Shown: positions 19,371 to 34,999, counted from the first letter of the stretch. The stretch: DNA of 64,000 bases from Thermoleophilaceae bacterium (GCA_036378175.1 DASUWY010000073.1:1-64000); one strand, 5' to 3'. Program-made: numbers and translations. The notes: generated by a model not told the origin, from the sequence alone.

Positions 19371-19880
19371 ATGTTCGAGCGGCTCAACACTCCGGAGGAA
19401 GCGTTCAACTTCCAGCTCGGCGCCGCACTCAAGATGGAGCACACGGTGCTCGAAATGCTGGATGACCTGATCGAGGCCTCACAGGACGAGAAGCTGAAGA
19501 AGCTCTTTCAGGAGCACCGGCGGGAGACCGAGCAGCACGTGAAGAACGTGGAGCGCGTGTTCGAGACCTTCGGCTGGGAAGCGGACGACTCCCCTTCGCC
19601 CATCATCCAGGCCCTCGAGAAGGAGGGCAAGTCGAGCATCAAGAAGTCCGACGAGTCCTTCTCCGACGCGATCATCCTCCAGTCCGCCAACGAGACGGAG
19701 CACCACGAGATCGCGGTCTACGAGAACCTGATCATCAACGCCGAGGCGATGGGCAAGGATGACGCCGTGGCGCTGCTCCGGGAGAACCTCGAGCAGGAGC
19801 GCAAGGCGCGCGAGCTCGTGGAGCAGGCGCTGCGCGAGGTCGTGGCCGTCACGCCCAAGCAGCCGGTGGGCCGGGTCTAG
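19371..19880 (+). CDS. Ferritin-like DUF892 (YciE/YciF-type) protein
   Basis: 169 residues predicted as a four-helix bundle, with regularly spaced Glu/His pairs (KMEHTVLEML, ETEQHVKNVERVF, NETEHHEIAVYENL) that match the DUF892 ferritin-like family and could bind a di-iron site. Homologues are stress-induced proteins of unknown biochemical role. The stop overlaps the stop of the convergent VOC gene by four bases. Confidence 0.75.
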   Translation: MFERLNTPEEAFNFQLGAALKMEHTVLEMLDDLIEASQDEKLKKLFQEHRRETEQHVKNVERVFETFGWEADDSPSPIIQALEKEGKSSIKKSDESFSDAIILQSANETEHHEIAVYENLIINAEAMGKDDAVALLRENLEQERKARELVEQALREVVAVTPKQPVGRV

Positions 19881-20314
19881 CCGCCGCGCCCGCGCGGCAT
19901 CTGCTGGATCGCCCAGCCGTTGCCGTCCGGGTCCTCGAAGAAGACGAAGCCGGCGAAGTCGAGCTCGTCATCGTCCCGAGCGTCCCGCGGGCCGCTGCCC
20001 TCGAACACCTGGATCTCGCCGAGCTCGGCGCCGCGCCCCACCAGCTCGGCGCGCGTGGCCCGCAGGTCGTGGGTGACGAGCTGTAGCCCCTTGATCGGGC
20101 TCGCGGATTGCGCCCCGGCGCCGCCACGGGACTGGATCACGATCGAGCACGCCGAGCCGGGCGGCGTGAGCTGGACCACGCGGTAGTCCTCGGTCACCTG
20201 CCTGTCGACGTCGACGTTGAAGCCGAGCTTCTCCGAGTAGAACGCCTTCGCGCGGTCGAGGTCCGCAACCGGCACGACGATCACTTCGAGCCTCAGTTCC
20301 ATCCCTACAACCAT
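19877..20314 (-). CDS. VOC-fold (glyoxalase/bleomycin-resistance) protein, last gene of the carboxylase operon
   Basis: 145 residues with the paired beta-alpha-beta-beta-beta units of the vicinal oxygen chelate fold: VVPVADLDRAKAFYSEKLGF near 15-34 and FVFFEDPDGNGWAIQQM near the end. The first-strand position that usually carries a metal-binding His/Gln appears hydrophobic, so the metal site may be incomplete. It overlaps the HAD gene upstream by ten bases and is the last of seven overlapping genes that include a dikinase-like phosphotransferase and a biotin carboxylase. That places it as a possible isomerase/epimerase, lyase or binding protein in that pathway (inference). Confidence 0.72.
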   Translation of the reverse strand: MVVGMELRLEVIVVPVADLDRAKAFYSEKLGFNVDVDRQVTEDYRVVQLTPPGSACSIVIQSRGGAGAQSASPIKGLQLVTHDLRATRAELVGRGAELGEIQVFEGSGPRDARDDDELDFAGFVFFEDPDGNGWAIQQMPRGRGG

Positions 20315-21114
20315 CCCAGGAGCTCGGACGTATCCGCAACCGTCGCGTGCGGGCGGCGCTTCTCGGGCACCTTGCTCAGGTCGATGTCCGCGCTGATGCC
20401 GCTGCGCACCAGGACGGTTCGAGAGCCGCCGAGGTGGCCGAGGGCGACATCCATGAAGAGATCGTCGCCCACCACGGCGATCTCCTCGGTGGGCACGGCC
20501 AGGCGCTTGTGGATCTCGCGCACCGCCGCCTTCGAGGGCTTGCCGACGATGGTGGGGCGCGCGCTCGACGCCTTCGCGATCGCCGCGGTGACCATCGCGC
20601 CGCGGCTCAGGATCGGTCCGTTGGCGCCCGCGTACGCGGACACATAGCTGCCGGTGAGCAGCCGCGCGCCGGCAATCACAGCGCGAGCAGCCTGCTCAAG
20701 CTCAGGAAGGTCGGCGTGGTCGATGTGGGCCACGAACACCACGTCGGCCCGGTCGGCCTCCTCGGGGCCGACGAGGTTGAGGCCGCAGTCCAGCAGGTAG
20801 CGCCGAGCGGAATCGGTGACGAACGGCAGCACCACCGCGTCGCGCCGGCCGCGGTCGAGGTACGCCTGCACGCTGCACAGCGGGGTGAGCATCTGCTCGT
20901 CCTCCACCGGCAGGCCAACGTCGCGCAGGCCCTTGGCGAACACCGTCGGCGGCACATGGCTGCCGTTGGTGAACACGGCGAAAGGGCGGCCCGACTCCTT
21001 GATCCGCTCGAGCAGCTCCCGGGCGCCCGGCACCACGTGCGCCGTGTCGCCGGCGCGGTGGACGAGCGTGCCATCCACGTCGAACACGAAGCCGCGGACA
21101 TCGTCAAGACGCAC
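20305..21114 (-). CDS. HAD-superfamily subfamily IIA phosphatase (NagD-like) in the carboxylase operon
   Basis: 269 residues with all HAD motifs: FVFDVDGTLVH (nucleophile and acid Asp near 10-12), FTNGS near 49, VGKPSKA near 188 and VGDDLFMDVALG near 212. The large C2 cap is typical of class IIA phosphatases acting on small phosphorylated metabolites. It overlaps the carboxyltransferase gene by 11 bases, so a phosphatase is built into the phosphotransferase-carboxylase operon. A role in removing phosphate from a pathway intermediate or a dead-end product is inferred. A second class IIA phosphatase lies at 40284. Confidence 0.82.
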   Translation of the reverse strand: MRLDDVRGFVFDVDGTLVHRAGDTAHVVPGARELLERIKESGRPFAVFTNGSHVPPTVFAKGLRDVGLPVEDEQMLTPLCSVQAYLDRGRRDAVVLPFVTDSARRYLLDCGLNLVGPEEADRADVVFVAHIDHADLPELEQAARAVIAGARLLTGSYVSAYAGANGPILSRGAMVTAAIAKASSARPTIVGKPSKAAVREIHKRLAVPTEEIAVVGDDLFMDVALGHLGGSRTVLVRSGISADIDLSKVPEKRRPHATVADTSELLGWL

Positions 21115-22582
21115 GGCGCCACACCACCACGTCGTCGCCCTTCTCGAGCCGCATGTAGCTGATCGACTTCCGCCGCTCCACCTCGCGCAGCAGGCGCACG
21201 AGTGGGTCGCGGCCAGGCCGCGCCATGGACGGCGCCCGCTCGGTGGCGGGCGGCGACGCCACCATCGCGTCCACCTGCTCCTCCGGCATGGTCAGGCGCA
21301 GCAGCAGCTCCTCGTCCGAGATGCGCGAGCCGAACCGCTCGCGCGCGCCGTCGAGCGACACTGGCTCAACATGGCGCAGCTTCTCAGCCTGCGGGCGCGC
21401 CAGGACCCTGTCCGCGATCTCCGGATCCACCGGCGCAGCGGGCTCGCCGTAGTGGCCGAGGAAGTAGCGCACCGTCTCGTCGGACACGCTCCGCCAGCGC
21501 TCGCCGTCGATCACGTTCCGCGCCGCCTGGCTGGCCACGAACTGCGACACCGGGGTGACGAGGATCGGGTAGCCCATCTCCGCGCGCACGCGCGTGACTT
21601 CCTCGAGCACCTGGTCGAAGAGCTCGCCCTTGCCGAGCTCCTCGAGCATCCGACGCGTGGTGGTGACCATCCCGCCCGGCAGCTGATGGTGGTAGTAGGC
21701 AGCGTCGTACTCGAGCGGCTGGCCGGGCGGCAGTGCCTTCTCGCGGGCGAGCTCCCGGAAATGATCGGACACGACCGCGAGCGCATTCATGTCCAGCCGG
21801 TGCGAGTAGCCCTCGGCCTCGAGGTTGCGGATGGTCGACTCGGCGGTGGGCTGCGAGGTGCCGTTGCCGAGGGGCCCGCAGGCCGTGTGCAGCACCTGGT
21901 AGCCGGAGCGAAGACCCTCTATGTATACGAGCGGCGCGAGGCCGATCGTGCAGTGGCTGTGCAGCTCGAGCGTGCGCTCGCCCGCCGCGGCGCGCAGGGC
22001 CGGCGCAAGCTCCCGGACGGCATCCACCGTGAGCAGCCCGCCCGGGTCCTTCAGGTAGAGACGGTCCATGTGCTCGCAGTCGGCCATCGCGGCGGCACGC
22101 TCGGCGTAGTACTCGTGCGTGTGCACCGGGCTGATCGAGTACGTGAGGCCCACCACCACCTCCTCCACGCCCTCCTCCTTCGCCATCCGCGCGAGACGGC
22201 GCAGCGCGTCCGGGTTGTTCGACGGCTCGGCGATCTGGAAGCGGCGGATGCCGTTGCGCACCACGCAGCGGAAGGACAGCCTCATGAGCTCCTCATCGCA
22301 CGGTTGCCAGGCGATGAAGCGCATGCCGGTGGTGATGAAGTTGAGGAGCGTGCTCGGCATCGCGGCGCTCACGAGCCGGATGCGCTCCCACGGATCCTCC
22401 TTGTGGAAGCGCACGGACACGGCCATGTGCGTGCTCGAGGTGAAGTCGAGCGCGTGGAAGCCGACGCGCTCCATGGTGGGCGCGATCGACAGCACGTCGG
22501 GCGTGGTGAGGCCAGTGGCGCTCCACAAGCTCTGGTTGCCGTCGCGCGTCGTGGTGTCGACAATGTCGATGATCTGGCTCAT
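21104..22582 (-). CDS. Biotin-dependent carboxyltransferase, divergent relative of PycB/OadA
   Basis: 492 residues: an HMGL-like TIM barrel (1 to ~280), the PYC/OADA conserved domain (~290-430) and a short basic tail (ISYMRLEKGDDVVVWRR) where PycB would carry a biotinyl domain. Visible active-site elements are Asp14 and Gln17 (TRDGNQSLW), the carbamylated-lysine candidate Lys178 (LYLKDPGG) and metal ligands His208/His210 (LHSHCTIG). The His of the usual RDAHQS is Asn16. The pyruvate-binding arginine of pyruvate carboxylase aligns with Thr85 (FITTGMR) in my alignment by eye. So carboxyl transfer chemistry is kept but pyruvate is unlikely to be the acceptor. ATG 22582 overlaps the biotin carboxylase stop as ATGA. 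Confidence 0.8.
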   Translation of the reverse strand: MSQIIDIVDTTTRDGNQSLWSATGLTTPDVLSIAPTMERVGFHALDFTSSTHMAVSVRFHKEDPWERIRLVSAAMPSTLLNFITTGMRFIAWQPCDEELMRLSFRCVVRNGIRRFQIAEPSNNPDALRRLARMAKEEGVEEVVVGLTYSISPVHTHEYYAERAAAMADCEHMDRLYLKDPGGLLTVDAVRELAPALRAAAGERTLELHSHCTIGLAPLVYIEGLRSGYQVLHTACGPLGNGTSQPTAESTIRNLEAEGYSHRLDMNALAVVSDHFRELAREKALPPGQPLEYDAAYYHHQLPGGMVTTTRRMLEELGKGELFDQVLEEVTRVRAEMGYPILVTPVSQFVASQAARNVIDGERWRSVSDETVRYFLGHYGEPAAPVDPEIADRVLARPQAEKLRHVEPVSLDGARERFGSRISDEELLLRLTMPEEQVDAMVASPPATERAPSMARPGRDPLVRLLREVERRKSISYMRLEKGDDVVVWRRAS

Positions 22583-23919
22583 ACGATCGCCTCCTCCAAC
22601 CAGTGCGTAGTGATGCGGCCGTGGACGAAGTCGGGGTGGCCGAGCACCTCCGCGAGCAGGGCGCGGTTGGTGTCCACCCCGTCGGCCTCGAGCCGCTCGA
22701 GCGCCTCGTGAACGATCTCGATCGCCTCGTCGCGGTCGGCTCCGTGACCGATCAGCTTGGCCATCAGCGAGTCGTAGTGCGGTGGGATCAGCGCGCCGTC
22801 GCGGCAGTGGGTGTCCACCCGCAGGCCGGGCAGCTCCGGCACCGCGAAGCGAGCGAGCCGGCCCGGGCTCGGCATGAAGCCGTTGGAGACGTCCTCGGCG
22901 GTGAGGCGGCACTCCACCGCGTGGCCGTCGAACGTCACCTCTTCCTGCGAGAACGAGAGCGCCTGGCCGTCCGCGATCCGCAATTGCTCCGCCACCAGGT
23001 CACGCCCCGTCACCGCCTCCGTCACCGGGTGCTCCACCTGGATGCGGCAGTTCATCTCGAGGAAGAAGAACCCGCCGGTCGCGGCGTCCACGATGAACTC
23101 GACGGTGCCGAGGTTGCGGTAGCCGATGGCGCGCGCGAACGCCACGCCCGCCGCGGTGAGCGCCTCCCGCGTCTGCGCCGGAAGGAACGGCGCGGGCGCC
23201 TCCTCGATCAGCTTCTGGTAGCGCCGCTGCACCGAGCAGTCGCGCTCGCCGAGATGCAGCACCGTGCCGTGATCGTCGGCCGCCACCTGCACCTCCACGT
23301 GCCGGGCGTCGGCCACGTACCGCTCCACGTAGAGCCGCTCGTCGCCGAACGCCGAGCGCGCCTCCGCCACCGCCACGCCGAACAGACGCTGCAGCTCGTC
23401 CGGATCGTGCGCGAGCTTGATGCCGCGGCCGCCACCGCCGCCCGCGGCCTTCAGGAGGACGGGGAAGCCGGACTCCGCCGCGAAGGCCTCCGCCTCCATG
23501 AAGGTGCCGACCTCGCCGCCCGGCACGAGCGGCAGCCCCGCCTCGAGCGCCACCTCGCGCGCGCGCAGCTTGTCTCCCGCCAATTCCATCGCCTCGGGCG
23601 GCGGGCCGACGAAGCGGATGCCGTGCTCGCGCGCGAGCACGGGCAGGCGCGGGTTCTCGGCGAGGAAGCCGTAGCCGGCGTGGATCGCATCGCATCCCGT
23701 GCCGAGCGCCGCCTGCACCACCAGCTCCGGGCGCAGGTAGCTGTCGCTCGCCGGCGCCGGCCCTATGCATACCGCGCGGTCCGCCAGCTCGGCCGCGAGC
23801 CCGTCCATGTCCACCTCCGAGGCGCCCACCACGCATTCGAGCCCGAGTGCGCGGCACGCGCGCACGATGCGCACGGCGATCTCGCCGCGGTTGGCGATGA
23901 ACACCCGCGAGATGTCCAT
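22579..23919 (-). CDS. Biotin carboxylase subunit (AccC-like)
   Basis: 446 residues, the full length of a stand-alone biotin carboxylase. IANRGEIAVRIVRACRALG starts the N domain. The glycine-rich ATP-grasp loop KAAGGGGGRGIKLA lies near residue 160. Later come the conserved glutamate/asparagine set in FFLEMNCRIQVEHPVTE near 280 and the lid and C domain. It uses ATP and bicarbonate to carboxylate biotin on the carrier protein. CRIQVEH replaces the usual TRLQVEH, a small variation beside the active site. The ATG at 23919 overlaps the BCCP stop (TGATG), so expression is coupled; earlier in-frame codons lie over the BCCP gene. Confidence 0.9.
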   Translation of the reverse strand: MDISRVFIANRGEIAVRIVRACRALGLECVVGASEVDMDGLAAELADRAVCIGPAPASDSYLRPELVVQAALGTGCDAIHAGYGFLAENPRLPVLAREHGIRFVGPPPEAMELAGDKLRAREVALEAGLPLVPGGEVGTFMEAEAFAAESGFPVLLKAAGGGGGRGIKLAHDPDELQRLFGVAVAEARSAFGDERLYVERYVADARHVEVQVAADDHGTVLHLGERDCSVQRRYQKLIEEAPAPFLPAQTREALTAAGVAFARAIGYRNLGTVEFIVDAATGGFFFLEMNCRIQVEHPVTEAVTGRDLVAEQLRIADGQALSFSQEEVTFDGHAVECRLTAEDVSNGFMPSPGRLARFAVPELPGLRVDTHCRDGALIPPHYDSLMAKLIGHGADRDEAIEIVHEALERLEADGVDTNRALLAEVLGHPDFVHGRITTHWLEEAIV

Positions 23920-24332
23920 CAAGCCGGCTCGACCCGGAACAGCGGCTGGCCGTACTCCACGAGCGCGGCGTTGTCCGCGCACACCTCGACGATCGTCCCC
24001 TCAACGCCCGCGGGGATCGAGTTCATCATCTTCATCACTTCGATCAGGCAGACGATCGTGTCCGCTTGGACCTTCGCTCCAACGTCGACGAAGGGCGCGG
24101 CCCCGGGGGCCTCGGCCCTGTAGAAGGTGCCCAGCATCGGCGCGTCTATGGTCGCGCCGTTCGGGCTGGGTGACTGGTGACTGGTGACTGGCGACTGGTG
24201 TATGGCCTCCGGCGCCGCACCGCCGCGGAGCACATGCAGCCTGAAGCCGTCGGTCTCGATCAGGAGCTCATCGAGGTCCGACTCGTCGATGAGCCGGAGA
24301 ATCTCCCGCACGTCGTCGTCGCTCAGGGCCAC
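23919..24332 (-). CDS. Biotin carboxyl carrier protein (AccB-like)
   Basis: 137 residues. An N-terminal ~40-residue acidic region (DDDVREILRLIDESDLDELLI) is followed by a short flexible linker (HQSPVTSHQSPSPN). The biotinyl domain has the target lysine Lys101 in EVMKMMN. The linker is written by a seven-base DNA repeat, so its protein sequence also has a seven-residue period. The domain shuttles carboxybiotin between the carboxylase and carboxyltransferase encoded downstream. ATG 24332 directly abuts the stop codon of the ATP-grasp gene at 24333. Confidence 0.88.
   Translation of the reverse strand: MALSDDDVREILRLIDESDLDELLIETDGFRLHVLRGGAAPEAIHQSPVTSHQSPSPNGATIDAPMLGTFYRAEAPGAAPFVDVGAKVQADTIVCLIEVMKMMNSIPAGVEGTIVEVCADNAALVEYGQPLFRVEPA
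24170..24204 (+). repeat. Heptanucleotide repeat GTGACTG inside the BCCP gene
   Basis: Five units on the plus strand: three perfect GTGACTG, one GCGACTG and one GTGTATG. On the coding (minus) strand they encode the Ser/Pro/His linker of BCCP. Three units equal 21 bases, so gain or loss of one or two units would shift the frame. Confidence 0.8.
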
Positions 24333-25364
24333 CTACTGCTTCTTTTCCGCGCCGAAGGTGCTCATCAGGAGGGACATCGCTGAGGTCGGCTTCTTCTCTT
24401 CCTTCGGCTTCGCGATTCCGGTGACCGGGCGGGACTGCACGACGAACAACTCGCCGTCGCCGCGCGCGAAGGCCCACTCGATGTCCTGTCGCGAGCCGAA
24501 GTAGCGCTCCACGCGCTTGCCCACGTCCACGAGCGTGGCGATCCTCGGCTCGTCGAGGCACGGGATGTCCCGCCTCTCCTCGGGAACGTCCAGGAAAACC
24601 GTTCCGGCCTCGCCCGGGACGTACTCCACGGTCTTCGAGCTGATGTTCTCGCGCACGACCTCGCGCGTGACCTTGCTCACCAGGTAGTCGTCGGGAGTCA
24701 CCTCGCCGCCCACCACTGCCAGGCCCAGCCCCCACGACGCGTTGATGGCAACCATGCTCGGATCGCCGCTCACGGGGTTGCAGGTGAACATCACGCCAGA
24801 CACCTCGGCATCCACCATCAGCTGCACCGTCACGCCCATCGCTGGTTCCTCGTCCTTCTCGCCGAGCCGCGCCCGGTAGGCGATCGCGGGCGGGCTGTAG
24901 AGGCTGATCCAGCAATCGCGGATCGCGTCGCACACCTGTCCGGCGCCGCGTATCCAGAGGTAGGTCTCCTGCTGCCCGGCGAAGGTCGCCTCCTGGCTGT
25001 CCTCACCCAGCGCGCTCGAGCGCACGGCAACGGGTACGTCACCGAGCTCGGCGTAGTGCCTCGTCACCTCGTCGCGCACGGCGGCGGGCATTGGCGCTGA
25101 ATGCATCGCCTCGCTGATCGAGTGCGAGGCGCGGTTCACGGCGTCCACGTCGCCGGAGGAGGCGCGTTCGAGCGCATGCGCGATCACGCCGCGCAACCCC
25201 GCCTGCTCGACGAACAGCCGGAACGCCTCGCATGACAGCGCGAAGCCCGGTGGCACCGGGATCTCCGCCGCGATCAGCTCGCCGAGCGTGGAGCTCTTGC
25301 CGCCGAACGAGTCGGTGTCCGCCTGTCTGAGATCGGCGAGCGAACGTGTGAGCTCGGCGGCCAC
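24333..25364 (-). CDS. Stand-alone PEP-synthase/PPDK N-terminal ATP-grasp subunit
   Basis: 343 residues from GTG 25364, equal to the ATP-binding domain of PEP synthase, rifampin phosphotransferase and phenylphosphate synthase subunit 2. Markers include FGGKSSTLGELIAAEIPVPP near the start, VAVRSSALGEDSQEATFAGQ near 115, MTVQLMVDAEVSGVMFTCNP-type sequence near 190 (here GVTVQLM) and EWAFARGDGELFVVQSRPVT near 315. The domain uses ATP to phosphorylate the swivelling histidine, releasing AMP and phosphate. The histidine domain is on the separate upstream gene, with eight bases between its stop and this GTG. A charged tail (PKEEKKPTSAM) follows. The start is uncertain by a few codons. Confidence 0.82.
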   Translation of the reverse strand: MAAELTRSLADLRQADTDSFGGKSSTLGELIAAEIPVPPGFALSCEAFRLFVEQAGLRGVIAHALERASSGDVDAVNRASHSISEAMHSAPMPAAVRDEVTRHYAELGDVPVAVRSSALGEDSQEATFAGQQETYLWIRGAGQVCDAIRDCWISLYSPPAIAYRARLGEKDEEPAMGVTVQLMVDAEVSGVMFTCNPVSGDPSMVAINASWGLGLAVVGGEVTPDDYLVSKVTREVVRENISSKTVEYVPGEAGTVFLDVPEERRDIPCLDEPRIATLVDVGKRVERYFGSRQDIEWAFARGDGELFVVQSRPVTGIAKPKEEKKPTSAMSLLMSTFGAEKKQ

Positions 25365-25372
25365 GAGCTCGT

Positions 25373-27127
25373 TCAGCCCGCCCCGCCGTCGACGATCGAC
25401 ACCACCCCCGCGCTGCCGTCCACGCGGATCATCTGGCCGGTGCGGATCAGGGAGGTGGCCCGGCCCGTGCCCACCACGGCTGGCAGGCCGTACTCGCGGC
25501 ACACGATCGCCGCGTGCGACATCACGCCACCCACGTCCGTGACGGTGGCCTTGATCTTCGAGAAGATCGGCGCCCAGGCGGGCGACGTGGAGCCCGTGAC
25601 GAGTATCTCGCCCTCGCGCACGTCCGCCAGCTCGTCGATCGTGCGGATCACGCGCGCCGGACCCTCGATCGTGCCCGGCGACGCCGGCGCGCCGACCACC
25701 TCGGTGGCGGCGGGATCCTGCGAGCGCGCCCACTCCTGCACGCGCTGCGTGGTCACGCCCCAGAGCATGATCGTCATCGGATCGGTGACCACCTCGGGCG
25801 CCACACCGAGCGCCGGCGGCGGCGTCCAGTCGCCGAGCCTGGCGAGCAGCTCCTTGCGCCGCTCCACGATCGGCGGCCAGAAGCTCGGGCCGCGTGGCGC
25901 GCCGCCGGTGGCCCAGCACAGCACGAGCTCGTCGAGCGCGCTCATCACCTCGTGCCGGCCGAGCTGGAAGATGTCCTCGGCGTCGTTCAGGAAGCCGTTC
26001 CGGGCGAGCAGCTCCCCGAACTCGCGCAGCTTGTTCCACCAGCGCGTGAGGAACCAGTAGTCGCAGAAGAACTTGTGCTCCTCCACGTAGGGGAACACGG
26101 TCCGGGAGAGGCCCAGCAGCTCGTTGAACGTCTGCCGAGCGCCCTCGTCGAGCAGCGAGCCGTATTCCTCCGCGAGCCGGTCGCGCTCGCGTTGGATCTC
26201 CTCCGTGGGACGGTCGATCTGTTCGCCCGCCTTGAGCGCGTTGATGTGCCCGATGAGCGAGGCGTAGGGAATGCTCGGGTCGTCGAGCCAGGAGCGGTAG
26301 TAGTGGTACAGGCCGTCGCCCGTGGCCATGTTGAACCACGGGTCCTTCACCTGCTGGAGATCCTCGAGCCACTTCCTGCCGGCGTCGCTCTGCTCGAGCG
26401 CCGCGTCGATCTCCTCGGGCGTGCGTCCCTCCACGAAGGCGTCGTCGACGCCGGTGTCGATCGCGAGGCGCGCGAGCCGGCGCAGCTCGGCGTCCGGCCT
26501 GAAGAGCAGCACGTCGATGCCCGCGACCATCTGCGCGATGTGCTGGTCCGGGATGTCCGGCAGGTTGGCCTTGCAGTGGTCGGCGAAGGTGGCGTACGCG
26601 CCGTAGCCGAGCAGCAGGAACTCGAAGTGCCGCTGCCACATCAGGTCGCCCAGGCGCAGGCAGCGCTGGTAGGAGTCGAGCACGTCCACGAACGCCGTGT
26701 TGCGCTCGCCCTCCATCACCTCGTCCGGCTCGTACTCGGGAAGGTCCGGCACCGGGAGGTTGGTCACCTCGTCGATCAGCGCGCGCACCCGCGACTTCCA
26801 CTGCTCGTACAGCTCCGACCAGTTCTCGAAGTAGTAGCTCGCGCGGCGCTGGAAGAACTCGGCCCGCTCGGCCATCTTCTCCGGGTCCGTGACCGGATTG
26901 CCCGAGATGTAGACGTAGCCGTTCACGATCCGGTAGTCGATCCCCATGGCCGGCGGCACGGCAAAGACGCGGTTCTGCCAGGCCCCCACAGCCTGGTACG
27001 GGCTGTCGATGCACTGCACGTCGAACGCCGGCATCGGCACCGGGAAGTGCATCGAGTTCCAGAACCAGAAGCGCTTCTCGTCCGCATCGCGCCGCGCCTC
27101 GTCGAACACGGCGTAGTACGGATACAT
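25373..27127 (-). CDS. Substrate/phosphohistidine subunit of a split dikinase-type phosphotransferase
   Basis: 584 residues. The last ~120 are the PEP-utilising mobile domain with the phosphorylated histidine His538 in TDVGGVMSHAAIVCREYG. The first ~430 residues are helical and rich in Trp/Tyr/Phe (FWFWNSMHFPVP, LYHYYRSWLDD, FFCDYWFLTRWW). They resemble the substrate-binding region of rifampin phosphotransferase and phenylphosphate synthase subunit 1. No C-terminal PEP/pyruvate barrel is present, so it is not a normal PEP synthase. With the ATP-grasp subunit it should move the beta-phosphate of ATP to an unknown substrate. It is the first gene of the seven-gene run; GGGAGG sits next to the ATG and can pair with an upstream CCTCCC. 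Confidence 0.78.
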   Translation of the reverse strand: MYPYYAVFDEARRDADEKRFWFWNSMHFPVPMPAFDVQCIDSPYQAVGAWQNRVFAVPPAMGIDYRIVNGYVYISGNPVTDPEKMAERAEFFQRRASYYFENWSELYEQWKSRVRALIDEVTNLPVPDLPEYEPDEVMEGERNTAFVDVLDSYQRCLRLGDLMWQRHFEFLLLGYGAYATFADHCKANLPDIPDQHIAQMVAGIDVLLFRPDAELRRLARLAIDTGVDDAFVEGRTPEEIDAALEQSDAGRKWLEDLQQVKDPWFNMATGDGLYHYYRSWLDDPSIPYASLIGHINALKAGEQIDRPTEEIQRERDRLAEEYGSLLDEGARQTFNELLGLSRTVFPYVEEHKFFCDYWFLTRWWNKLREFGELLARNGFLNDAEDIFQLGRHEVMSALDELVLCWATGGAPRGPSFWPPIVERRKELLARLGDWTPPPALGVAPEVVTDPMTIMLWGVTTQRVQEWARSQDPAATEVVGAPASPGTIEGPARVIRTIDELADVREGEILVTGSTSPAWAPIFSKIKATVTDVGGVMSHAAIVCREYGLPAVVGTGRATSLIRTGQMIRVDGSAGVVSIVDGGAG

Positions 27128-27154: not shown

Positions 27155-27214
27155 CGTCTCAATCTCGTAAGGACTCGGAAATGCCCCAGCTATGGGTGTC
27201 GACGTGGCCAGAAT

Positions 27215-27278
27215 GGACCCCCTCTCGTCAATTACGCGTTGTATACAGCATCAACCCGGCTTAGACGAGAGGGAGTCC
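27215..27278. terminator. 15-base inverted repeat between the amine operon and the carboxylase operon
   Basis: Arms 27215-27229 and 27264-27278 pair at 14 of 15 positions (GGACCCCCTCTCGTC / GACGAGAGGGAGTCC) around a 34-base loop of low GC containing GTATAC. It lies 27-90 bases past the permease stop on the minus strand, a reasonable place for a terminator, and upstream of the next operon's start, where it could also be regulatory. Confidence 0.5.
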
Positions 27279-27310
27279 ACTCTCCCTACTCCAACTCCTA
27301 CTCCCTACTG
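27279..27310 (+). repeat. Degenerate CTCCCTA-type short repeat at the permease gene end
   Basis: Units CTCCCTA, CTCCAA, CTCCTA and CTCCCTA run into the permease stop codon (TAG on the minus strand, 27307-27305). Spacing is 7, 6, 6 and 7 bases, so it is an irregular relative of the heptamer arrays at 3750 and 63020. Confidence 0.5.
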
Positions 27311-28915
27311 GCTTGCAGGCACCGGCTCCGCGGAATCGAGCCCCTCGTTGATCATCCGCCCCACGCTCTCGTACTTCGCTCTGTCATTCCGCTTGAGGTA
27401 CATGGCGTAGCCGAGACCGAGCAGGAAGATCGCCAGGTCGGCCCAGCAGAGCCACTTGGCGTACTGGTACCCAGAGCCCAGGAACGTCAGGTTCTTGATC
27501 GCCAGGTACAGCACGTATGCCTGCGCGGCTGCGGCAAGCAGCGGCGCGGTGAGCGTGGTCCACCAGTGGTGCTCTGCCTGGTGGTGCGTGCGGAAGTAGT
27601 TGACGATCGCGAGCGACACGATCGCCTGGATCGCGAGGATCGAGACCACTCCCATGAGCGCCATGAGGCCGTACACCTGGATGTACGCGACCGACTGCGC
27701 CGCGCCGGTCTTGGCGTCCACCGCCGCGAACAGCGCGAACACGCCCATGATCGCGGCCGCGATGAACGACTGCGTGGTGGACGCGATGTGCGGGCTGTGG
27801 AAGCGCGCGTGCGTGCGTCCCAGCACCGACGGCAACACGCGCTCGCGTCCCAGCGAGTACATGTAGCGCGCGGTGGTGTTGTGGAACGCCATTCCACAGG
27901 CGAAGGAGCCCGTGATGATGAACCAGCTCAGGCAGTCCTTGAGGAACTGGCCCGAGAACTGCTTGGCCGGGTTGAAGAAGAAGTTGGCCGAATCGTTCTG
28001 CGCCACCACCGCGGCGGCGTCGGTTGAGTGGTACCCGGAGATCGACGCCCACGACGTGACGACGTAGAAGATCCCGAGGCCGATCACCGAGATGTACATC
28101 GCACGCGGAACTGTCTTCTTCGGGTCCCGCGATTCCTCGCCGTAGTTGGGCGCCATTTCAAAGCCCACCCACGACCAGAACGCGAAGAAGATGCCGATGC
28201 CGGCAGCCCCCGCTGCGATCGCCGTGCCTCCCGCATGTCCGGCCGGCAGGCTCTTGAACGCGTTGATGGGATTGATCGCGCTGGCCGTGACGTTGCTCGC
28301 CCCGTCGGTGAACACCGCAAAGTCGAAGACGATCAGGGTCACGACCTCGCACAAGAGCGCGACACCGAGCACGCGAGCCGAGATGCGCACATCCAGGTAC
28401 GCGAGCACGCAGATCAGCGCGATCATGAACAGGCCGCACCAGTACCACTGGACATGCCAGCCGTAGCGCGCCGCCTTCAGTGAGGCGAAGTACGCGAACC
28501 CGCCGACCAGCGAGACCTCGAACACGCTGTACGCCGCGACCATCGAGAATCCGCTCGCCATCCCGAGCTCACGGTTGAGGCCGTGGCTGATGAAGCTGTA
28601 GAAGCCTCCCGCGGCCGTGACCTTTCTCGACATGGCCACGTAGCCGACGCTGAAGATCGTCAGCACGATGGTCGCGACGAGGAAGCCCGCCGGCGCGCCG
28701 ACGCCGTTGCCGAAGCCGACGGCGATAGGCGTGTTGAACAGCATCGCGGAGATCGGGGCCGCACCGGTGACGGTGAGGAACAGAACTCCGAGCAGGCCTA
28801 CAGATCTGCCCCTCAGCTTGAAGACGTCATCACGCTGCGAGACGTCGATGCTCTCGACGACGGGAAGCATCCCCTCACGGTGCTCCCCGAGTCCTGGGTG
28901 CTCAGTTGTGCTCAC
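27305..28915 (-). CDS. APC-superfamily amino acid/amine permease
   Basis: 536 residues with about 12-13 membrane segments. The APC start VGLLGVLFLTVTGAAPISAM (TM1) and a loop EESRDPKKTVPRAM near 265, typical of the amino acid-polyamine-organocation superfamily, are clear. The charged N-terminal tail is ~35 residues. As the last gene of the amine-catabolism operon it probably imports the amine or amino acid that the cluster degrades, by proton symport or exchange. The substrate is inferred only from context. Confidence 0.85.
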   Translation of the reverse strand: MSTTEHPGLGEHREGMLPVVESIDVSQRDDVFKLRGRSVGLLGVLFLTVTGAAPISAMLFNTPIAVGFGNGVGAPAGFLVATIVLTIFSVGYVAMSRKVTAAGGFYSFISHGLNRELGMASGFSMVAAYSVFEVSLVGGFAYFASLKAARYGWHVQWYWCGLFMIALICVLAYLDVRISARVLGVALLCEVVTLIVFDFAVFTDGASNVTASAINPINAFKSLPAGHAGGTAIAAGAAGIGIFFAFWSWVGFEMAPNYGEESRDPKKTVPRAMYISVIGLGIFYVVTSWASISGYHSTDAAAVVAQNDSANFFFNPAKQFSGQFLKDCLSWFIITGSFACGMAFHNTTARYMYSLGRERVLPSVLGRTHARFHSPHIASTTQSFIAAAIMGVFALFAAVDAKTGAAQSVAYIQVYGLMALMGVVSILAIQAIVSLAIVNYFRTHHQAEHHWWTTLTAPLLAAAAQAYVLYLAIKNLTFLGSGYQYAKWLCWADLAIFLLGLGYAMYLKRNDRAKYESVGRMINEGLDSAEPVPASQ

Positions 28916-28953
28916 TTGACCTCTCCTCGTTTGGGCTCATCCCGAAAGCGCAG

Positions 28954-29418
28954 CTACACGCTCGCGCCAACCTCCCGTACTTCGGTCAATGACCTCTCCC
29001 GCGTCTCGTCCAGCACCTCAACCAGCAACCGCTCCACCTCAGCGTTCCAGTCGTCCTGCCTGAGGCGGGTACGCCGCGGCCGGAGCGGCCGCGGGTCGGA
29101 ATCGGAGAAGCTCGACCGAGCCAGCCGGTCGAACGCCTCGATCACGCGGATTACGAGCCCGTAGTCGTGCGGGCCCACGAAGCTGCCGATCCAATCCCCC
29201 GGGCGCCCCTCGTCCGCGAACACGCCCTCGCGAACTCCCTCCCAGTAGACGTGCTGGAAGAGGCAGCCGGCATTGCCGCGCTTCACCCAGCAACCTGCGG
29301 TCACCTCTCGCTCGCCACGGGAGATGCCGCGCAGCCCCAGCTGGAGCAGCTCGCGTCCGCGCTCGGATTCGGCCAGGGCTACCAGGTCCTCGCGCAGCCG
29401 GCGCTCGTCAACGTTCAT
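28954..29418 (-). CDS. Unrecognised 154-residue protein in the amine operon
   Basis: I do not recognise this family. It is a soluble protein: helical start (DERRLREDLVALAESERGRELL), a central Cys/Trp/Phe-rich part (GCWVKRGNAGCLFQHVYWEG, then GDWIGSFVGPHDYG) and an Arg/Glu-rich helical end. Two close cysteines and conserved-looking His/Trp residues could form a small binding or catalytic site. It lies 12 bases after the first GS-like gene and 38 bases before the permease gene, so a role in the same pathway is likely. Confidence 0.6.
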   Translation of the reverse strand: MNVDERRLREDLVALAESERGRELLQLGLRGISRGEREVTAGCWVKRGNAGCLFQHVYWEGVREGVFADEGRPGDWIGSFVGPHDYGLVIRVIEAFDRLARSSFSDSDPRPLRPRRTRLRQDDWNAEVERLLVEVLDETRERSLTEVREVGASV

Positions 29419-29430
29419 GTCTCACCTCGC

Positions 29431-30774
29431 TCAATAGAGCTCCAGGTACTCATCCCGCTCCCAGTCGGTCACGTGGTCGTGGAAGCGCTGCAGCTCGTAG
29501 CGGCGCACAGCCGTGTACGCCTTTACGAACTCCGGACCGAGCAGATTCACAATCGCCATGTCGGACTCGAGCGCGGCAAGCGACTCCTCCACCGTGGTGG
29601 GGAGCTTGGGCTTCGATTCGTCCTCCTCAGCGGGCTGGCGCGCGGGCGGCTCGAGCTCGAGCTGGTCGGCGATCCCGAGGATGCCGGCGCCGAGCAGCGC
29701 GGCGGACGCCAGGTAAGGGTTGGACAGTCCTGTGGGCGCGCGGTTCTCCACGTGCTTCGACTTCGGGTTGCCGCCCTTCACGCGCACGAACGCGCTGCGG
29801 TCCTCGAGGCCCCAGGACACGTTCGTGGGGCTGAACGTGTGCGTGCGACGCCGCTTGAGGCAGTTCACCGTGGGCGCGAGCAGCGTGTAGATCGCGCGAG
29901 CGTGACGAAGCTGGCCCGCCACGAAGCTGCGGCCAACGTCGGAGAGGCCCCACTCGTGGTCGGGATCGAGCATCGCGTTGTCACCCGAGTCCGCGTGCAG
30001 CAGGCCGATGTGGTTGTGCGCGCCGCAGCCGGCGCCGTCCTGGAACGGCTTGGACATGAAGCTCGCGATCAGTCCCTCCTGGTGGGCGAGCTCCTTGGCG
30101 CCGTTCTTGAACGTGAAGGCGGTGTCCGGCCCGGCCATGCCGCTGCTCGGCCCGAACACGATCTCCCACTGGGAGCCGGCGTACTCGCAGTTGGCGGTGA
30201 TGATGTCCACGCCGAACTGGCGCATCTCGCCCACGATGCGCTCGACAACCGGCACCCACGTGTTCCGCACCGTGTTGAAGATGTGGTAGCCGTCGAAGAG
30301 CGGCTGCTTGGTCTCGCCGTCGAGCAGGTAGAACTCGGGCTCGAGGCCGATCAGCGGCTCGTAGCCGAGCGCGCGGCAGCGCTCGAGCACGCGCCGGAAG
30401 ACGTGCCGCGGCGCCGCGCCGAGCGGCTGGCCGTCGTCCCAGAACGTGTCGCAGATCATGCGGCCGGTGGCCTCAACCCATGGCACGATGCGTGCGGTGG
30501 TGGGGTCGGGCTTGAGCCGCTGGTCGGCGTACGCGATCTCCTCGTTGTAGAGGCTGCCCGGCACGACGTCGGAACGGCTGTCGAGCACGATCGTGCCGCC
30601 GTACATGTTCAGGCCCTCGTCGGCATAGCGGCCGGCGTGCTCGATCGGCACGAGCTTCGAGCGGCTCGTGCCGTGCATGTCCGGAAGCTCGAAGCGGACG
30701 TTGCGGATGCCGGCCTCCCGCCAGCCGGCGAGAACGTCCTCGACGGTGATCTGCTGCTCCTCGGCGGTGGCCAT
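29431..30774 (-). CDS. Glutamine-synthetase-like ligase, probable glutamate-amine (gamma-glutamyl) ligase
   Basis: 447 residues with the GS fold: N-terminal beta-grasp (NVRFELPDMHGTSRSK), catalytic domain with LEPEFYLL near 145, CGAHNHIGLLHAD near 250 and NPYLASAALLGAG near 350. True GlnA has NxHxS-type ammonium-site features and a C-terminal adenylylation loop that are not evident here. In operons with PuuD-type hydrolases, aminotransferases and aldehyde dehydrogenases, such proteins attach glutamate to amines or polyamines (PuuA/GlnA2-GlnA3 type). The specific amine is unknown. It lies three bases downstream of the DUF6885-like gene. Confidence 0.8.
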   Translation of the reverse strand: MATAEEQQITVEDVLAGWREAGIRNVRFELPDMHGTSRSKLVPIEHAGRYADEGLNMYGGTIVLDSRSDVVPGSLYNEEIAYADQRLKPDPTTARIVPWVEATGRMICDTFWDDGQPLGAAPRHVFRRVLERCRALGYEPLIGLEPEFYLLDGETKQPLFDGYHIFNTVRNTWVPVVERIVGEMRQFGVDIITANCEYAGSQWEIVFGPSSGMAGPDTAFTFKNGAKELAHQEGLIASFMSKPFQDGAGCGAHNHIGLLHADSGDNAMLDPDHEWGLSDVGRSFVAGQLRHARAIYTLLAPTVNCLKRRRTHTFSPTNVSWGLEDRSAFVRVKGGNPKSKHVENRAPTGLSNPYLASAALLGAGILGIADQLELEPPARQPAEEDESKPKLPTTVEESLAALESDMAIVNLLGPEFVKAYTAVRRYELQRFHDHVTDWERDEYLELY

Positions 30775-30777
30775 GAC

Positions 30778-31614
30778 CTACCTCCTCGTCGTCCCGTTGT
30801 CCCAGAAGCCCACGTCGAGCCCCAGCTCGGTGGCCAGCGCGGTCACCGCCTCGGCGTTTTCCGGCGGTACGACCACGAGCACGCCGCCCTCGCGGCCGTC
30901 GCCGCGCTCGAGCGCGTCCGCCAGCGCGGCCGGCGGCTGGAGGTGCCGTCCCATCCAGCCGAGCGACGGATACGAGTCCACCACGAGCACCAGCGAGCCG
31001 GCGCGCCCGCGCAGGAGCCGCGAGAGCTCCACGAAGTGGCCCACCGTCCAGTCGGACGCCGGCGGGGTGTCCACAGCCTCACCATCGAGATGCGCGAGCA
31101 GCGCCTCGAGCGGCGGGCGGCTTCCCCACAGGGGGGCCGTGCTCACGTTGGCGAGCAGGCGTGCGCTGAGCCCGGGGGCCGCTTCCACCACGCGCTCCAC
31201 GCCGTCCGCGGTCCACTCCCCGCGCAGCGGCACGCAGCGCAGCGCGCCGGCCGCGGCACCTTCGATCGCTTTGGCAAGACCTCCGGCGGAGGTGCCCGAG
31301 CCGGCGGGCGCCGTTCGCGGCAGGTCGAAGCGGTAATCGGTGAAGCTCACGGCGCCCGGCGGCACCGGCGGCCCCTCCTGGACCTCCGGAAGCACCGTGC
31401 CGGACTCGAGCGCGATCAGGTCCTGGTCGAGCTCCTCGCCGTCCCAGCTCACGATCCCCGCCTCGCGGAGCACACGCGCCGCGTGGAAGGGCCCGCAGAG
31501 ATTGTCCTTCTGCTGAAGAGCAGCGCGCTGCCCACCGAGATCGGCCAGAACGCGCGCTCCTGTGAGTGCCTCAGCCACGACTCCCTCGGTCGGGGTTGTG
31601 CGTTGATATCCCAC
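30778..31614 (-). CDS. DUF6885-like protein with Cys/His peptidase-like motif
   Basis: 278 residues from GTG 31614; a later GTG at 31578 (V13), preceded by GGGAG, is a credible alternative that would lie downstream of a TTGACA-containing promoter candidate. The segment QQKDNLCGPFHAARVLREAG near residue 35-55 has a Cys in a papain/C39-like N-terminal helix. DWTVGHFVELSRLL near 195 supplies a His, followed by VLVVDSYPSLGW with Asp, a plausible triad. The family is of unknown function. Its place between two GS-like ligases and a PuuD-type hydrolase suggests hydrolysis or transfer of gamma-glutamyl amides (inference). Confidence 0.55.
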   Translation of the reverse strand: MGYQRTTPTEGVVAEALTGARVLADLGGQRAALQQKDNLCGPFHAARVLREAGIVSWDGEELDQDLIALESGTVLPEVQEGPPVPPGAVSFTDYRFDLPRTAPAGSGTSAGGLAKAIEGAAAGALRCVPLRGEWTADGVERVVEAAPGLSARLLANVSTAPLWGSRPPLEALLAHLDGEAVDTPPASDWTVGHFVELSRLLRGRAGSLVLVVDSYPSLGWMGRHLQPPAALADALERGDGREGGVLVVVPPENAEAVTALATELGLDVGFWDNGTTRR

Positions 31615-32359
31615 TTTCCGCAGTTGGTGTCAAGTCTGGTCCTTTTGACCAATTTCGAGCCGCATCGGCAAAAGCGGACATCATCTGGCTGCGCTCGTCG
31701 GCCTCCGGATGCCACTGCACGCCGAGGAGCCAGCGGCCGTCGTCCGCCTCGATCGCCTCGATCACCCCGTCCACCTCCGCGCGCCCGCTCACCACGAGCC
31801 CCTCGCCCAGCCTGTCCACCGCCTGGTGGTGGTGGCAGCTCGCCAGGTGCTCCACCTCACCGGCCGCCTCGGCGGTGAGGGATCCAGGCTCGAGGGTGAT
31901 CGCGTGCTCGGTTCCCTCGAACGTGCCGAGCGCCCTGCGGTGCGGGTTCGATCCCTCCACCTCCGGCAGGTGCTGCACGAGCGTGCCGCCGAACGCGACG
32001 TTGATGATCTGCATGCCGCGGCAGATCCCGAACACGGGCATGCCGCGGTCCACGGCGCTGAGCAGCAGGGCGATCTCGAAGTCGTCGCGGTCGCGGTAGG
32101 TGGACTCGAGCTCGGGGTCGCGCGGCGCACCGTACGAGGAAGGGTCGATGTCCGCGCCGCCGATCAGCAGCAGGCCGTCGATCCGCTCGAGCAGCTCGAG
32201 CGGCGCCCTCGCGTCCACCGGCAGGAGCATCGCGATGGCGCCGGTGCGCTGCACCGAGGACACGTAGGTGTCCGCCACGAGGTGCGCGGTCTGGTCCCAG
32301 AAGCTCCAGCGCGCGCGTTCGTGCACCGCGCAGATGCCGATCACGGGCTCAGACGGCAC
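31571..32359 (-). CDS. PuuD-type gamma-glutamyl hydrolase (class I amidotransferase fold)
   Basis: 262 residues, peptidase C26 family. The nucleophile is in VFGICRGMQIINVAFGG near residue 110, and the His-x-Glu of the triad in GVQWHPEADE near 220; LLLIGGADIDPSSYG is also typical of PuuD. The enzyme hydrolyses gamma-glutamyl-GABA or similar amides to recover glutamate at the end of the gamma-glutamylated amine pathway. It starts at GTG 32359, overlapping the second GS-like gene by 11 bases, and its 3' end overlaps the DUF6885-like gene by up to 44 bases. Confidence 0.83.
   Translation of the reverse strand: MPSEPVIGICAVHERARWSFWDQTAHLVADTYVSSVQRTGAIAMLLPVDARAPLELLERIDGLLLIGGADIDPSSYGAPRDPELESTYRDRDDFEIALLLSAVDRGMPVFGICRGMQIINVAFGGTLVQHLPEVEGSNPHRRALGTFEGTEHAITLEPGSLTAEAAGEVEHLASCHHHQAVDRLGEGLVVSGRAEVDGVIEAIEADDGRWLLGVQWHPEADERSQMMSAFADAARNWSKGPDLTPTAESGISTHNPDRGSRG
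31605..31651 (-). promoter_or_regulatory. Candidate internal promoter with TGGTC-N5-GACCA operator
   Basis: On the minus strand TTGACA (31633-31628) is 17 bases from GATATC (31610-31605), a usable -35 with a weak -10. Just upstream lies the perfect palindrome TGGTC-CTTTT-GACCA (31637-31651), the dyad type bound by FadR/GntR-family regulators. The same TGGTC half-site appears twice in the promoter region of the operon at 37847-37863. The site falls inside the PuuD-like coding sequence. Confidence 0.45.
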
Positions 32360-33665
32360 GGCCGTAGCGCTCCCTCTCCCAGTCGCTCACAGCCTCGCGC
32401 CACGCCTTCAACTCCCACGCCCGCGAGACGAGGTAGTAGTCGCAGAACGTCTCGCCGAGCACCGCGCGCAGGTCGGCATCGGCGCTGAATGCCGCGATCG
32501 CGCTCTCGAGCGAGCCGGGCAGCGGCGGCAGGTCCTCGCGGTCGGACGCGTCGCCCTCCACGGGCGGGGGCGGCTTGGCTTCGCGCCTGATGCCGTCGGC
32601 GGCCGAGGCCACCAGCGCGGCCAGCGCCAGGTACGGGTTGGCGTCCGCGCCGGGGCGGCGGCACTCGATGCGCCAGCGCTCCGGCTTGTCGCCCCGGATC
32701 GCGCGCACGGCGGCCGAGCGGTTCTCGATGCCCCAGCTCGCGTTCACGGGCGCGAACCAGCCGGGCACGAGCCGCTTGTATGAGTTCACCGTTGGGTTCA
32801 GCATCAGGGACGCTCCCGCCAGGTGGTCGAGCACACCCGCGATGGCCGACTCGAAGAGCGCCTCATCCGAGGCGAACGCGCTCTGCCCATCGCGCCAGCA
32901 CGACAGGTGCACGTGCCCGCTCGAGCCCTCCTCGCCGGGCACCGTCTTGGCGAGGAAGCTGGCGGTCAGCCCCATCGCGCCCGCCACCTCCTTCACCGCG
33001 AGCTTCACGAACGCGGCGTCGTCCGCCGCCCGCATCCCGTCGCGGGCTGCGATGTTCAGCTCGAGGAGCCCGGGCCCGGCCTCGGTGTGCACGGCGGAGA
33101 GCTCAACGCCGAGCGCGTCCAGCGCCGGACCGAGACGGGTCACGAAGGCGTCGAAGCGCGCGATCTCGCCGAGGCTGTAGCTGATGCCGGACGACAGCGG
33201 CTGGTCCTCCGCGTCGCGCAGCCGCACCTCGTACTCGAGCGCGGCGCGGGTCTCGTAGCCGAGCTCGGCCATCTTCTCGAGAGCGCCGCGCAGCACCTCG
33301 CGCGAGGCGAGCTCGCACGGGCGGCCGTCCGGCCAAACGGGAGTGGCGAGGCAGATGCGCCAGCCCGGCAGCCACGACAGCTCGCGCAGGGTGGAGGGAT
33401 CTGGCCGCACCACGAGGTCACCCGCGCCGGAGCGGATGCCGAAGCTCTCGTAGTCGGTGATCGGGGTGTCCGTGGGGTCGAGGGCGAGCAGCAGGTCGGT
33501 CATCACCGCGCCGTCGCGAAGCGCCGCCTCGAAGGCGGCGGGTCGTAGCGCCTTGCCGCGCACCTGCCCGTTCACGTCCGGCAGCCCGAGCAGGACGTAT
33601 TCGCCGGCCGCGCCCTCGGGAGTGGCCGCGCCCGCCGGCAGGTCGCCCAGGCTCACGTCGGTCAC
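32349..33665 (-). CDS. Second glutamine-synthetase-like ligase
   Basis: 438 residues from GTG 33665, which overlaps the aminotransferase stop as GTGA. GS-fold landmarks: LLGLPDVNGQVRGKAL near 30, LEYEVRLRD near 145, GSSGHVHLSCW near 255, SYKRLVPGWFAPVNASWG near 305 and NPYLALAALVASAADGI near 355. It is clearly diverged from the first GS-like protein and lacks ~40 residues of its C-terminal insert, so the two probably act on different amines or amino acids. No adenylylation site is visible. Confidence 0.8.
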   Translation of the reverse strand: MTDVSLGDLPAGAATPEGAAGEYVLLGLPDVNGQVRGKALRPAAFEAALRDGAVMTDLLLALDPTDTPITDYESFGIRSGAGDLVVRPDPSTLRELSWLPGWRICLATPVWPDGRPCELASREVLRGALEKMAELGYETRAALEYEVRLRDAEDQPLSSGISYSLGEIARFDAFVTRLGPALDALGVELSAVHTEAGPGLLELNIAARDGMRAADDAAFVKLAVKEVAGAMGLTASFLAKTVPGEEGSSGHVHLSCWRDGQSAFASDEALFESAIAGVLDHLAGASLMLNPTVNSYKRLVPGWFAPVNASWGIENRSAAVRAIRGDKPERWRIECRRPGADANPYLALAALVASAADGIRREAKPPPPVEGDASDREDLPPLPGSLESAIAAFSADADLRAVLGETFCDYYLVSRAWELKAWREAVSDWERERYGRAV

Positions 33666-34999
33666 GACAGCCGCTCCTTCACGCTCTTCTCCACGTCGGC
33701 GATCGTGGCGGCGAAGCGCTCCACCATCTCGCCAAGCTCCGCGTCCGTCGCGGTGAAGGCGGGCGCGAGCAGCGTCTGGTCGCCCGTGTAGCCATCGGGT
33801 GTGGAGTGGGTGGAGGTGACGAGCAGCCCGTTCTCGAACGCTGTCTGATCCACGAGCGCGGCGGCGTCCAGCTCGTCGGGCAGGAATGACTCGCCGTCGC
33901 GCGGATCCACCAGCTCCACTCCGAGCAGGAAGCCCACGCCGCGCACCTCGCGCACGATGTCGTTCCCGGACAGCGCGGCCCCGAACTCGTCGCGCAGAGA
34001 CGGCCCGCGCTCGCGCACGCGATCCACAAGCCCGCGCTCCACGAGGATCTCGAGCACCGCGAGCCCGGTGGCGCAGGACAGCGGCGCGCCGTCCCAGGTG
34101 TGGCCGTGCTCGAACTCCCGCGAGCCGCCCGCCAGAGCGTCGTACACCTCCTGCGTGCAGAACGTGGCCGATAGCGGGAAGTAGCCGGCGGCAAGGCCCT
34201 TGCCGCCCGTGACGATGTCCGGCTCGATCGGCAGCGGCTGGCCTGCGAACCAGGAGCCGGTGCGGCCCATGCCGGTGACCACCTCGTCGAAGCAGACGAG
34301 GAAGCCGTGCTCCTCGCGGCGCTCTGCCAGCCCTTTCCAGAAGAGCTCTGGCGGCGCGTATCCGGGGAGCGCCGCCGCGCTCACGGGCTCGCAGAAGAAC
34401 GCCGCGATGGAGTCCGGTCCGGCGCCCTCGATCACGCGATCGAGCTCGTCGAGCGCTGCCTGCCCGCTGGGATCGAAGCGCCAGGTGGCGGGCGGCACGT
34501 GCATGTGCCCGGGCAGATACTCCGAGTAGGGCCGCTGGAGGGTGCGGCGGCCCGTGAGCGCGAGCGCTCCCATCAGCGCGCCGTGGTAGGCCTGCGCCTG
34601 CGTGATCACGCGCCACCGGCCTTCCTCACCGCGGTCCACGTGGTACTGACGCGCCAGCCGGAGCGCCGACTCGTTGGCCTCCGAGCCACCGGTGGAGAAG
34701 CGCACGCGCGCCATCTCCGGCGCCGCGATCTCGATCAGGCGCGAGGCGAGCCGCTCCTGCGGCTCGTTCGTGAAGTGGTGGTTGTAGATGTACGCGAGCT
34801 CTTCGGCCTGGCGCAGCCCGGCGTCCACGATCTCGGTGTTGCCGTGCCCGAGACAGACGGCCATAGCGCCGCCCGAGCAGGCGTCGAGCACCTCGAAGCC
34901 GTCCGTGGTCCAGAGGCGGACTCCCTCGCCGCGCTCGATGTTCGGATACGGGAGGTCGAGCAGGCGCGGGAAGACGTTGGTCCGATCGGCGGTGATCAT
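33662..34999 (-). CDS. Class III PLP aminotransferase (first of two)
   Basis: 445 residues, fold type I omega-aminotransferase. Visible are the phosphate-binding FSTGGSEANESALRLAR near 105, the Asp stacking on PLP in LVCFDEVVTGMGRTG near 245 and the Schiff-base lysine in TGGKGLAAGYFPL near 273. It removes the terminal amino group of an amine or omega-amino acid to give the aldehyde used by the dehydrogenase at 37920. ATG 34999 overlaps the stop of the GntR gene (ATGA). About half its residues match the second aminotransferase at 36460, indicating an old duplication. Confidence 0.87.
   Translation of the reverse strand: MITADRTNVFPRLLDLPYPNIERGEGVRLWTTDGFEVLDACSGGAMAVCLGHGNTEIVDAGLRQAEELAYIYNHHFTNEPQERLASRLIEIAAPEMARVRFSTGGSEANESALRLARQYHVDRGEEGRWRVITQAQAYHGALMGALALTGRRTLQRPYSEYLPGHMHVPPATWRFDPSGQAALDELDRVIEGAGPDSIAAFFCEPVSAAALPGYAPPELFWKGLAERREEHGFLVCFDEVVTGMGRTGSWFAGQPLPIEPDIVTGGKGLAAGYFPLSATFCTQEVYDALAGGSREFEHGHTWDGAPLSCATGLAVLEILVERGLVDRVRERGPSLRDEFGAALSGNDIVREVRGVGFLLGVELVDPRDGESFLPDELDAAALVDQTAFENGLLVTSTHSTPDGYTGDQTLLAPAFTATDAELGEMVERFAATIADVEKSVKERLS

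Follow-up and report, generated by a model that had tools for sequence, protein, structure and literature searches.

What reactions would bring a split, dikinase-type phosphotransferase together with a biotin-dependent carboxylase and a phosphatase? This question is raised by seven overlapping or closely abutting genes on the minus strand of a 64,000-nucleotide stretch of DNA from a Thermoleophilaceae bacterium (GCA_036378175.1 DASUWY010000073.1:1-64000; "the window" hereafter means the whole of this stretch). When the sequence was re-read, the gene order and junctions given in a first-pass annotation were reproduced exactly: the genes run from 27127 to 19877 with junctions of 8, 0, -1, -4, -11 and -10 bases. 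We propose that the first six genes are very probably the hydroxyphenylethanone operon hpeH-I-C-B-A-D, an Hpe catabolic operon used most likely for 4-hydroxyacetophenone.

Identity of the operon

The Hpe pathway was described in Rhodococcus rhodochrous GD02 by Dexter et al. in 2022, and the six genes encode a phenol dikinase of two subunits, a carboxylase that depends on biotin and acts on the 4-phospho-aryl ketone, and a phosphatase (PMC9618137). Both 4-hydroxyacetophenone and acetovanillone are phosphorylated by purified GD02 HpeHI; HpeCBA accepts the ketones for carboxylation in phosphorylated form only, each turnover costing one ATP, and the phosphate is removed from the carboxylated product by HpeD (PMC9618137). 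A 2025 study established that HpeHI is a dikinase with AMP as the main product, that its swivel His is essential, and that HpeI has the crystal structure deposited as PDB 9goj (PMC12167813). The first-pass annotation had proposed phosphorylation by a split dikinase resembling phenylphosphate synthase, followed by biotin-dependent carboxylation and dephosphorylation, and this logic agrees with the published Hpe pathway (PMC9618137; PMC12167813). It did not recognise the combination as a described pathway, which had been published in 2022 as Hpe, and it erred in its tentative suggestion of an enol or ketone as the phosphorylated group: the phosphate goes on the phenol oxygen of the hydroxyphenyl ketone, and it is the ketone methyl that gets carboxylated.

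The features that match the Hpe/Acv operons are a two-component dikinase, the biotin carboxyl carrier protein (BCCP), biotin carboxylase (BC) and carboxyltransferase (CT) genes directly downstream in that order, a NagD-like phosphatase gene directly after them, and HpeE and HpeF encoded in the genome. The best PDB match of the window HpeI is 9goj (E 1.7e-78, 42% identity). GD02 itself was not found in the collections searched, and the sequence reference used here is a GD02-type proxy, the Rhodococcus sp. JS3073 plasmid NZ_CP113952 (L111), which encodes an HpeI sharing 97% identity with 9goj and has the gene order H-I-BCCP-BC-CT-HAD-E-F. Identities between the window proteins and those of L111 are 50% for HpeH, 41% for HpeI, 50% for BC, 47% for CT and 31% for the HAD phosphatase. 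Compared with GD02 hpeHICBADEF, the window has the same six genes in the same order on a single strand with overlapping junctions, and its genome also carries HpeE, HpeF, PobA and PcaGH orthologues; it differs in that the proteins are 30-50% identical, hpeE and hpeF are unlinked, a VOC gene is added and no VanA-type enzyme was found. The window HpeH also has Ser before the catalytic His, where GD02 has Cys; the GD02 C580S variant is reported to be nearly as active as the wild type (PMC9618137/PMC12167813). As to gene names, Table 1 of PMC9618137 lists hpeB as the carboxyltransferase and hpeA as the biotin carboxylase; the L111 order BCCP-BC-CT and the reported masses (HpeB 49.3 kDa, HpeA 57.4 kDa) suggest the opposite assignment.

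The kinase is encoded by hpeH (25373..27127, minus strand as are all the genes of the operon), the alpha subunit of 584 amino acids with a substrate-binding part and a phosphohistidine swivel domain (NF006153, E 4e-266; PF00391 at residues 504-574), and by hpeI (24333..25364), the ATP-grasp subunit of 343 amino acids starting from GTG at 25364 (PPDK_N PF01326, E 1e-97). The carboxylase is made up of the BCCP encoded by hpeC (23919..24332; 137 amino acids; Biotin_lipoyl PF00364, E 1e-19) with the biotinyl-lysine motif EVMKM, the BC subunit (22579..23919; 446 amino acids; PF00289/PF02786/PF02785; ATG at 23919) and the CT subunit (21104..22582; 492 amino acids; HMGL-like PF00682 and PYC_OADA PF02436; ATG at 22582). 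It is followed by hpeD (20305..21114; 269 amino acids; PF13344/PF13242; GTG at 21114), encoding a HAD-IIA phosphatase of the NagD/p-nitrophenyl-phosphatase-like kind whose nearest PDB entries are p-nitrophenyl phosphatases and NagD, and by the last gene of the operon, which encodes a VOC/glyoxalase-fold protein (19877..20314; PF00903, E 2e-9; ATG at 20314). Start and stop codons overlap as TGATG at the BC start and as ATGA at the CT start. The swivel His motif TDVGGVMSH of HpeH and the biotinylation motif of BCCP are both intact. GC content by codon position backs the annotated frames, with the exception of HpeI, a longer open frame that had been filtered out. Promoter and terminator scans gave nothing above chance.

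The carboxyltransferase site

Domain names such as PPDK_N, PEP-utilisers and PYC_OADA would superficially fit an anaplerotic pair of phosphoenolpyruvate (PEP) synthase and pyruvate carboxylase, and the first-pass annotation had itself named PEP formation and oxaloacetate synthesis from pyruvate as the competing function. The CT sequence argues against this. Residue 85 is Thr, and the Hpe-type family has T in 79, S in 3 and P in 3 of 85 sequences, where the solved oxaloacetate decarboxylase, PycB and 5S subunits have an aligned Arg (LLRGQN). We take the Arg at the LLRGxN-aligned site to be the pyruvate-binding Arg of pyruvate carboxylase. The residues aligned with the active-site R13, D14, Q17, K178, H208 and H210 (the R-D-Q, K and HxH motif) are invariant in all 85 CTs. 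A domain search of HpeH found no PEP/pyruvate TIM-barrel domain, with PF00391 as the sole domain detected, and the conserved linkage to a NagD-like phosphatase also speaks against the anaplerotic pair. This explanation is extremely improbable, and we rejected it on the basis of domain content and the CT residue.

Conservation and distribution

A CT profile scan of GTDB genomes gave 326 confirmed relatives, and the locus counts below refer to the best 80 of these 326; as the loci were gathered through CT, the counts describe the companions of the carboxylase and give no frequency for the linkage of the kinase to it. HpeH is found upstream in 37 of the 56 loci having at least 5 kb of upstream sequence, and 34 of these have HpeI too. 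A UPF0261/Tm-1-like protein stands in place of HpeH in 17/56 loci; no locus has both (0/56) and two have neither (2/56). The HAD phosphatase lies directly downstream of CT in 59 of the 69 loci with enough sequence. The six-gene order is not due to chance, and the homologous genes are routinely linked, contrary to the unlinked clusters that the first-pass annotation had said would count against its reading. Its seven-gene unit holds for the six genes (HpeH in 37/56 and HAD in 59/69 loci), and fails for VOC as a conserved part, with no match to the VOC gene in any of the 80 related loci.

Whole-genome searches located the cluster, or the portion fitting short contigs, in relatives of the same genus, family and order; five genomes from a single further family have it complete. 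The order is preserved in Thermoleophilia and Rubrobacter relatives, with 54-81% identity for most subunits and 70-81% for the HpeH orthologues. The closest relatives are Rubrobacter taiwanensis (L041) and clusters in Solirubrobacterales metagenome-assembled genomes (L033-L036), none of which has the VOC gene; hpeE directly follows hpeD in Rubrobacter and other relatives (R. taiwanensis and L036 among them), unlike in the window. The same order is found in Rhizobium leguminosarum BT01 (L112), followed by genes annotated as 'acetoacetate--CoA ligase' (hpeE) and amidohydrolase (hpeF). In an HpeH tree of 54 sequences, the window protein belongs to a clade with 100/100 support consisting of 12 Thermoleophilia/Rubrobacter kinases, all adjoining the carboxylase, although the CT-based sampling biases this last observation. 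Other arrangements were also seen: L050, L053 and L058 (Thermomicrobium, Bacterium HR28) and L113 have HpeH-BCCP-CT-HAD without adjacent HpeI or BC, and on a T. roseum plasmid HpeH-HpeI stands beside a convergent accC.

The Thermoleophilia/Rubrobacter clade could form a distinct functional branch of Hpe, maybe with a different phenolic ketone, a lineage-specific VOC step and two interchangeable HpeH proteins sharing a single HpeI; we consider this doubtful.

The VOC gene

The VOC gene overlaps hpeD by 10 bases, like other junctions of the operon, and hpeE and hpeF are not adjacent. It is conceivable that the VOC protein adds a real further step, such as hydrolysis or isomerisation of a beta-keto acid, which replaces the HpeE/HpeF function in this lineage. 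This idea is improbable, given that HpeE and HpeF orthologues occur elsewhere in the genome and that the related clusters lack the gene. VOC homologues were detected in 13 of the 61 relatives searched, mostly genomes without the carboxylase, and a paralogue is present elsewhere in the window genome. In L030, a cluster of more distant relationship, a VOC homologue (48%) lies downstream of the HAD gene without adjoining it. We treat the VOC gene as a lineage-specific passenger or accessory gene, which is probably not a conserved part of the system.

Predicted route and substrate

In the proposed pathway HpeI would bind ATP and phosphorylate the swivel His of HpeH, and HpeH would hand the phosphate to the phenol OH to give 4-phospho-acetophenone, with AMP and inorganic phosphate as by-products. 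BCCP, BC and CT would then carboxylate the acetyl methyl with bicarbonate at the expense of a second ATP, yielding 4-phospho-benzoylacetate, from which HpeD would strip the phosphate. HpeE (CoA ligase) and HpeF (hydrolase) would cleave the product to acetyl-CoA and 4-hydroxybenzoate, and PobA and PcaGH would carry 4-hydroxybenzoate to ring cleavage. Phosphorylation, carboxylation and dephosphorylation were demonstrated in GD02 (PMC9618137, PMC12167813); for the window strain we infer them from orthology and synteny.

Candidates for the rest of the route were located in the same genome. The HpeE orthologue (C4:12834-14780) is 66% identical to a Rubrobacter-type protein and the HpeF orthologue (C6:21116-21976) is 66% identical to a Rhizobium protein. 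PobA is at C61:16156-17316, with 538.3 bits vs a cut-off of 538.7, and PcaH and PcaG are at C61:3432-4660, both above their cut-offs. The VanA_C search found no VanA-type Rieske O-demethylase in the 95%-complete genome, in a search that matched control genomes and covered this kind of O-demethylase only. Given PobA and PcaGH and the lack of a VanA-type hit, the growth substrate predicted from the downstream genes is likely 4-hydroxyacetophenone rather than acetovanillone.

Several points weigh against the assignment of this operon to the Hpe pathway for 4-hydroxyacetophenone. HpeE and HpeF are unlinked to the operon, the PobA score falls fractionally under the curated cut-off, and we know of no biochemistry for any Thermoleophilia member. 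The window proteins share moderate identity with the proven enzymes (HpeH 50%, HpeI 42%, BC 50%, CT 47%, HAD 31%), so the exact aryl ketone is not fixed. The same Hpe chemistry might act on a different phenolic ketone: acetovanillone, acetosyringone or another para-hydroxyaryl ketone, perhaps one with a longer chain. Identity between this kinase clade and the GD02 enzyme that was assayed is about 50%, and the tested homologues vary in their preference for acetovanillone vs acetosyringone. The lack of a detected VanA-type enzyme and the presence of PobA and PcaGH, which fit a methoxy-free substrate, point the other way, and we regard a different ketone as a possible but clearly less likely alternative to 4-hydroxyacetophenone.

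A second HpeH is encoded at C61:18393-20135 (L021:9304-11142). Its identity to the window HpeH is 53%, the tree places it with the GD02-type HpeH, and its neighbours are pobA and genes for an FAD oxidoreductase, an SDR protein and a LysR regulator. The genome has a single HpeI despite the two HpeH, and the two substrate subunits may share this one ATP-grasp subunit. In Sphaerobacter (L047), HpeH-HpeI-HpeH are found within one cluster.

Related kinase and carboxylase systems

With the Pps pair of Azoarcus KH32C the kinase subunits share 40-46% identity, which raises the possibility of a phenol system consisting of phenylphosphate synthase and phenylphosphate carboxylase. PpsAB of the Azoarcus KH32C plasmid (L114) and CreHI of Rhodococcus ruber Y14 (L115) are homologous two-component phenol dikinases. 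Unlike in the window, where ppc genes are lacking and the carboxylase is biotin-dependent, the L114 kinase is linked to a UbiD-type phenylphosphate carboxylase (ppcBDAG) with no biotin carboxylase. The L115 kinase, also without a biotin carboxylase, lies in a 4-cresol-type cluster with P450/oxidation genes, the Cre label resting on this gene content and not on a direct match to C. glutamicum. Neither the Cre sequences nor the one Pps sequence belong to the window clade in the HpeH tree. A phenol system is very improbable here, and phenylphosphate synthase was rejected on its partner genes and on the tree.

Another close known system is acvABCDEF of Sphingobium lignivorans SYK-6, a six-gene kinase/carboxylase/phosphatase operon with the last two enzymes encoded elsewhere, as in the window genome (PMC13101465). 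The SYK-6 system differs in its proteobacterial host, which also grows on acetosyringone (PMC13101465); the comparison is by description only. The same paper introduced three other operons into R. aromaticivorans RHA1 carrying the GD02 hpeEF genes (PMC13101465).

A further variant keeps BCCP-BC-CT-HAD in the same order, for example on plasmid pBAR1 of S. bisphenolicum (L116), and differs from the window in that a single UPF0261 protein replaces HpeHI. This UPF0261/Tm-1-like protein occurs with BCCP-BC-CT, and usually HAD, in L048, L052, L054, L057, L059, L061, L064, L069, L071 and L077-L079, and there are further such clusters in L090-L091, L094-L095, L100, L116 and L117. It matches PDB 9mpy, a UPF0261 domain-containing protein, and is possibly the MarK kinase. 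The mutually exclusive swap between HpeHI and UPF0261 suggests that the first step is modular. L116 is the carboxylase-phosphatase cluster of the bisphenol A degrader Sphingomonas bisphenolicum AO1. 4-Hydroxyacetophenone is a breakdown product of bisphenol A, so this compound may be consumed through the L116 cluster.

Both the Hpe pathway and the logic behind it have been published before; what is added here is a copy in the Thermoleophilia/Rubrobacter lineage. We found no paper naming Thermoleophilia or Rubrobacter together with the Hpe pathway in a search that left aside supplementary figures and the MarK survey, where an earlier mention is possible. With the window genome, deep-branching soil actinobacteria gain a predicted route that runs in full from 4-hydroxyacetophenone to protocatechuate cleavage. 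Among GTDB species representatives, the operon that links kinase and carboxylase is spread over more phyla than the five full-synteny genomes that we found named in the literature (GD02 and four others), which also cites 52/836 linked cases. The relatives described here provide new enzyme sets for lignin-stream engineering, one of them from Rubrobacter.

Genes upstream of the operon

An inverted repeat (27195-27298, 70% complementary) lies between hpeH and the upstream permease gene. The same-strand genes at 27305-33800 (minus strand) encode an amino-acid permease, a protein without a Pfam match, a glutamine-synthetase-like protein and a DUF6885 protein; judging by sequence, two more products look like a glutamine amidotransferase of class I and another glutamine synthetase. 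This gene set is reminiscent of a cluster for amine catabolism by gamma-glutamylation and has no relation to the operon.

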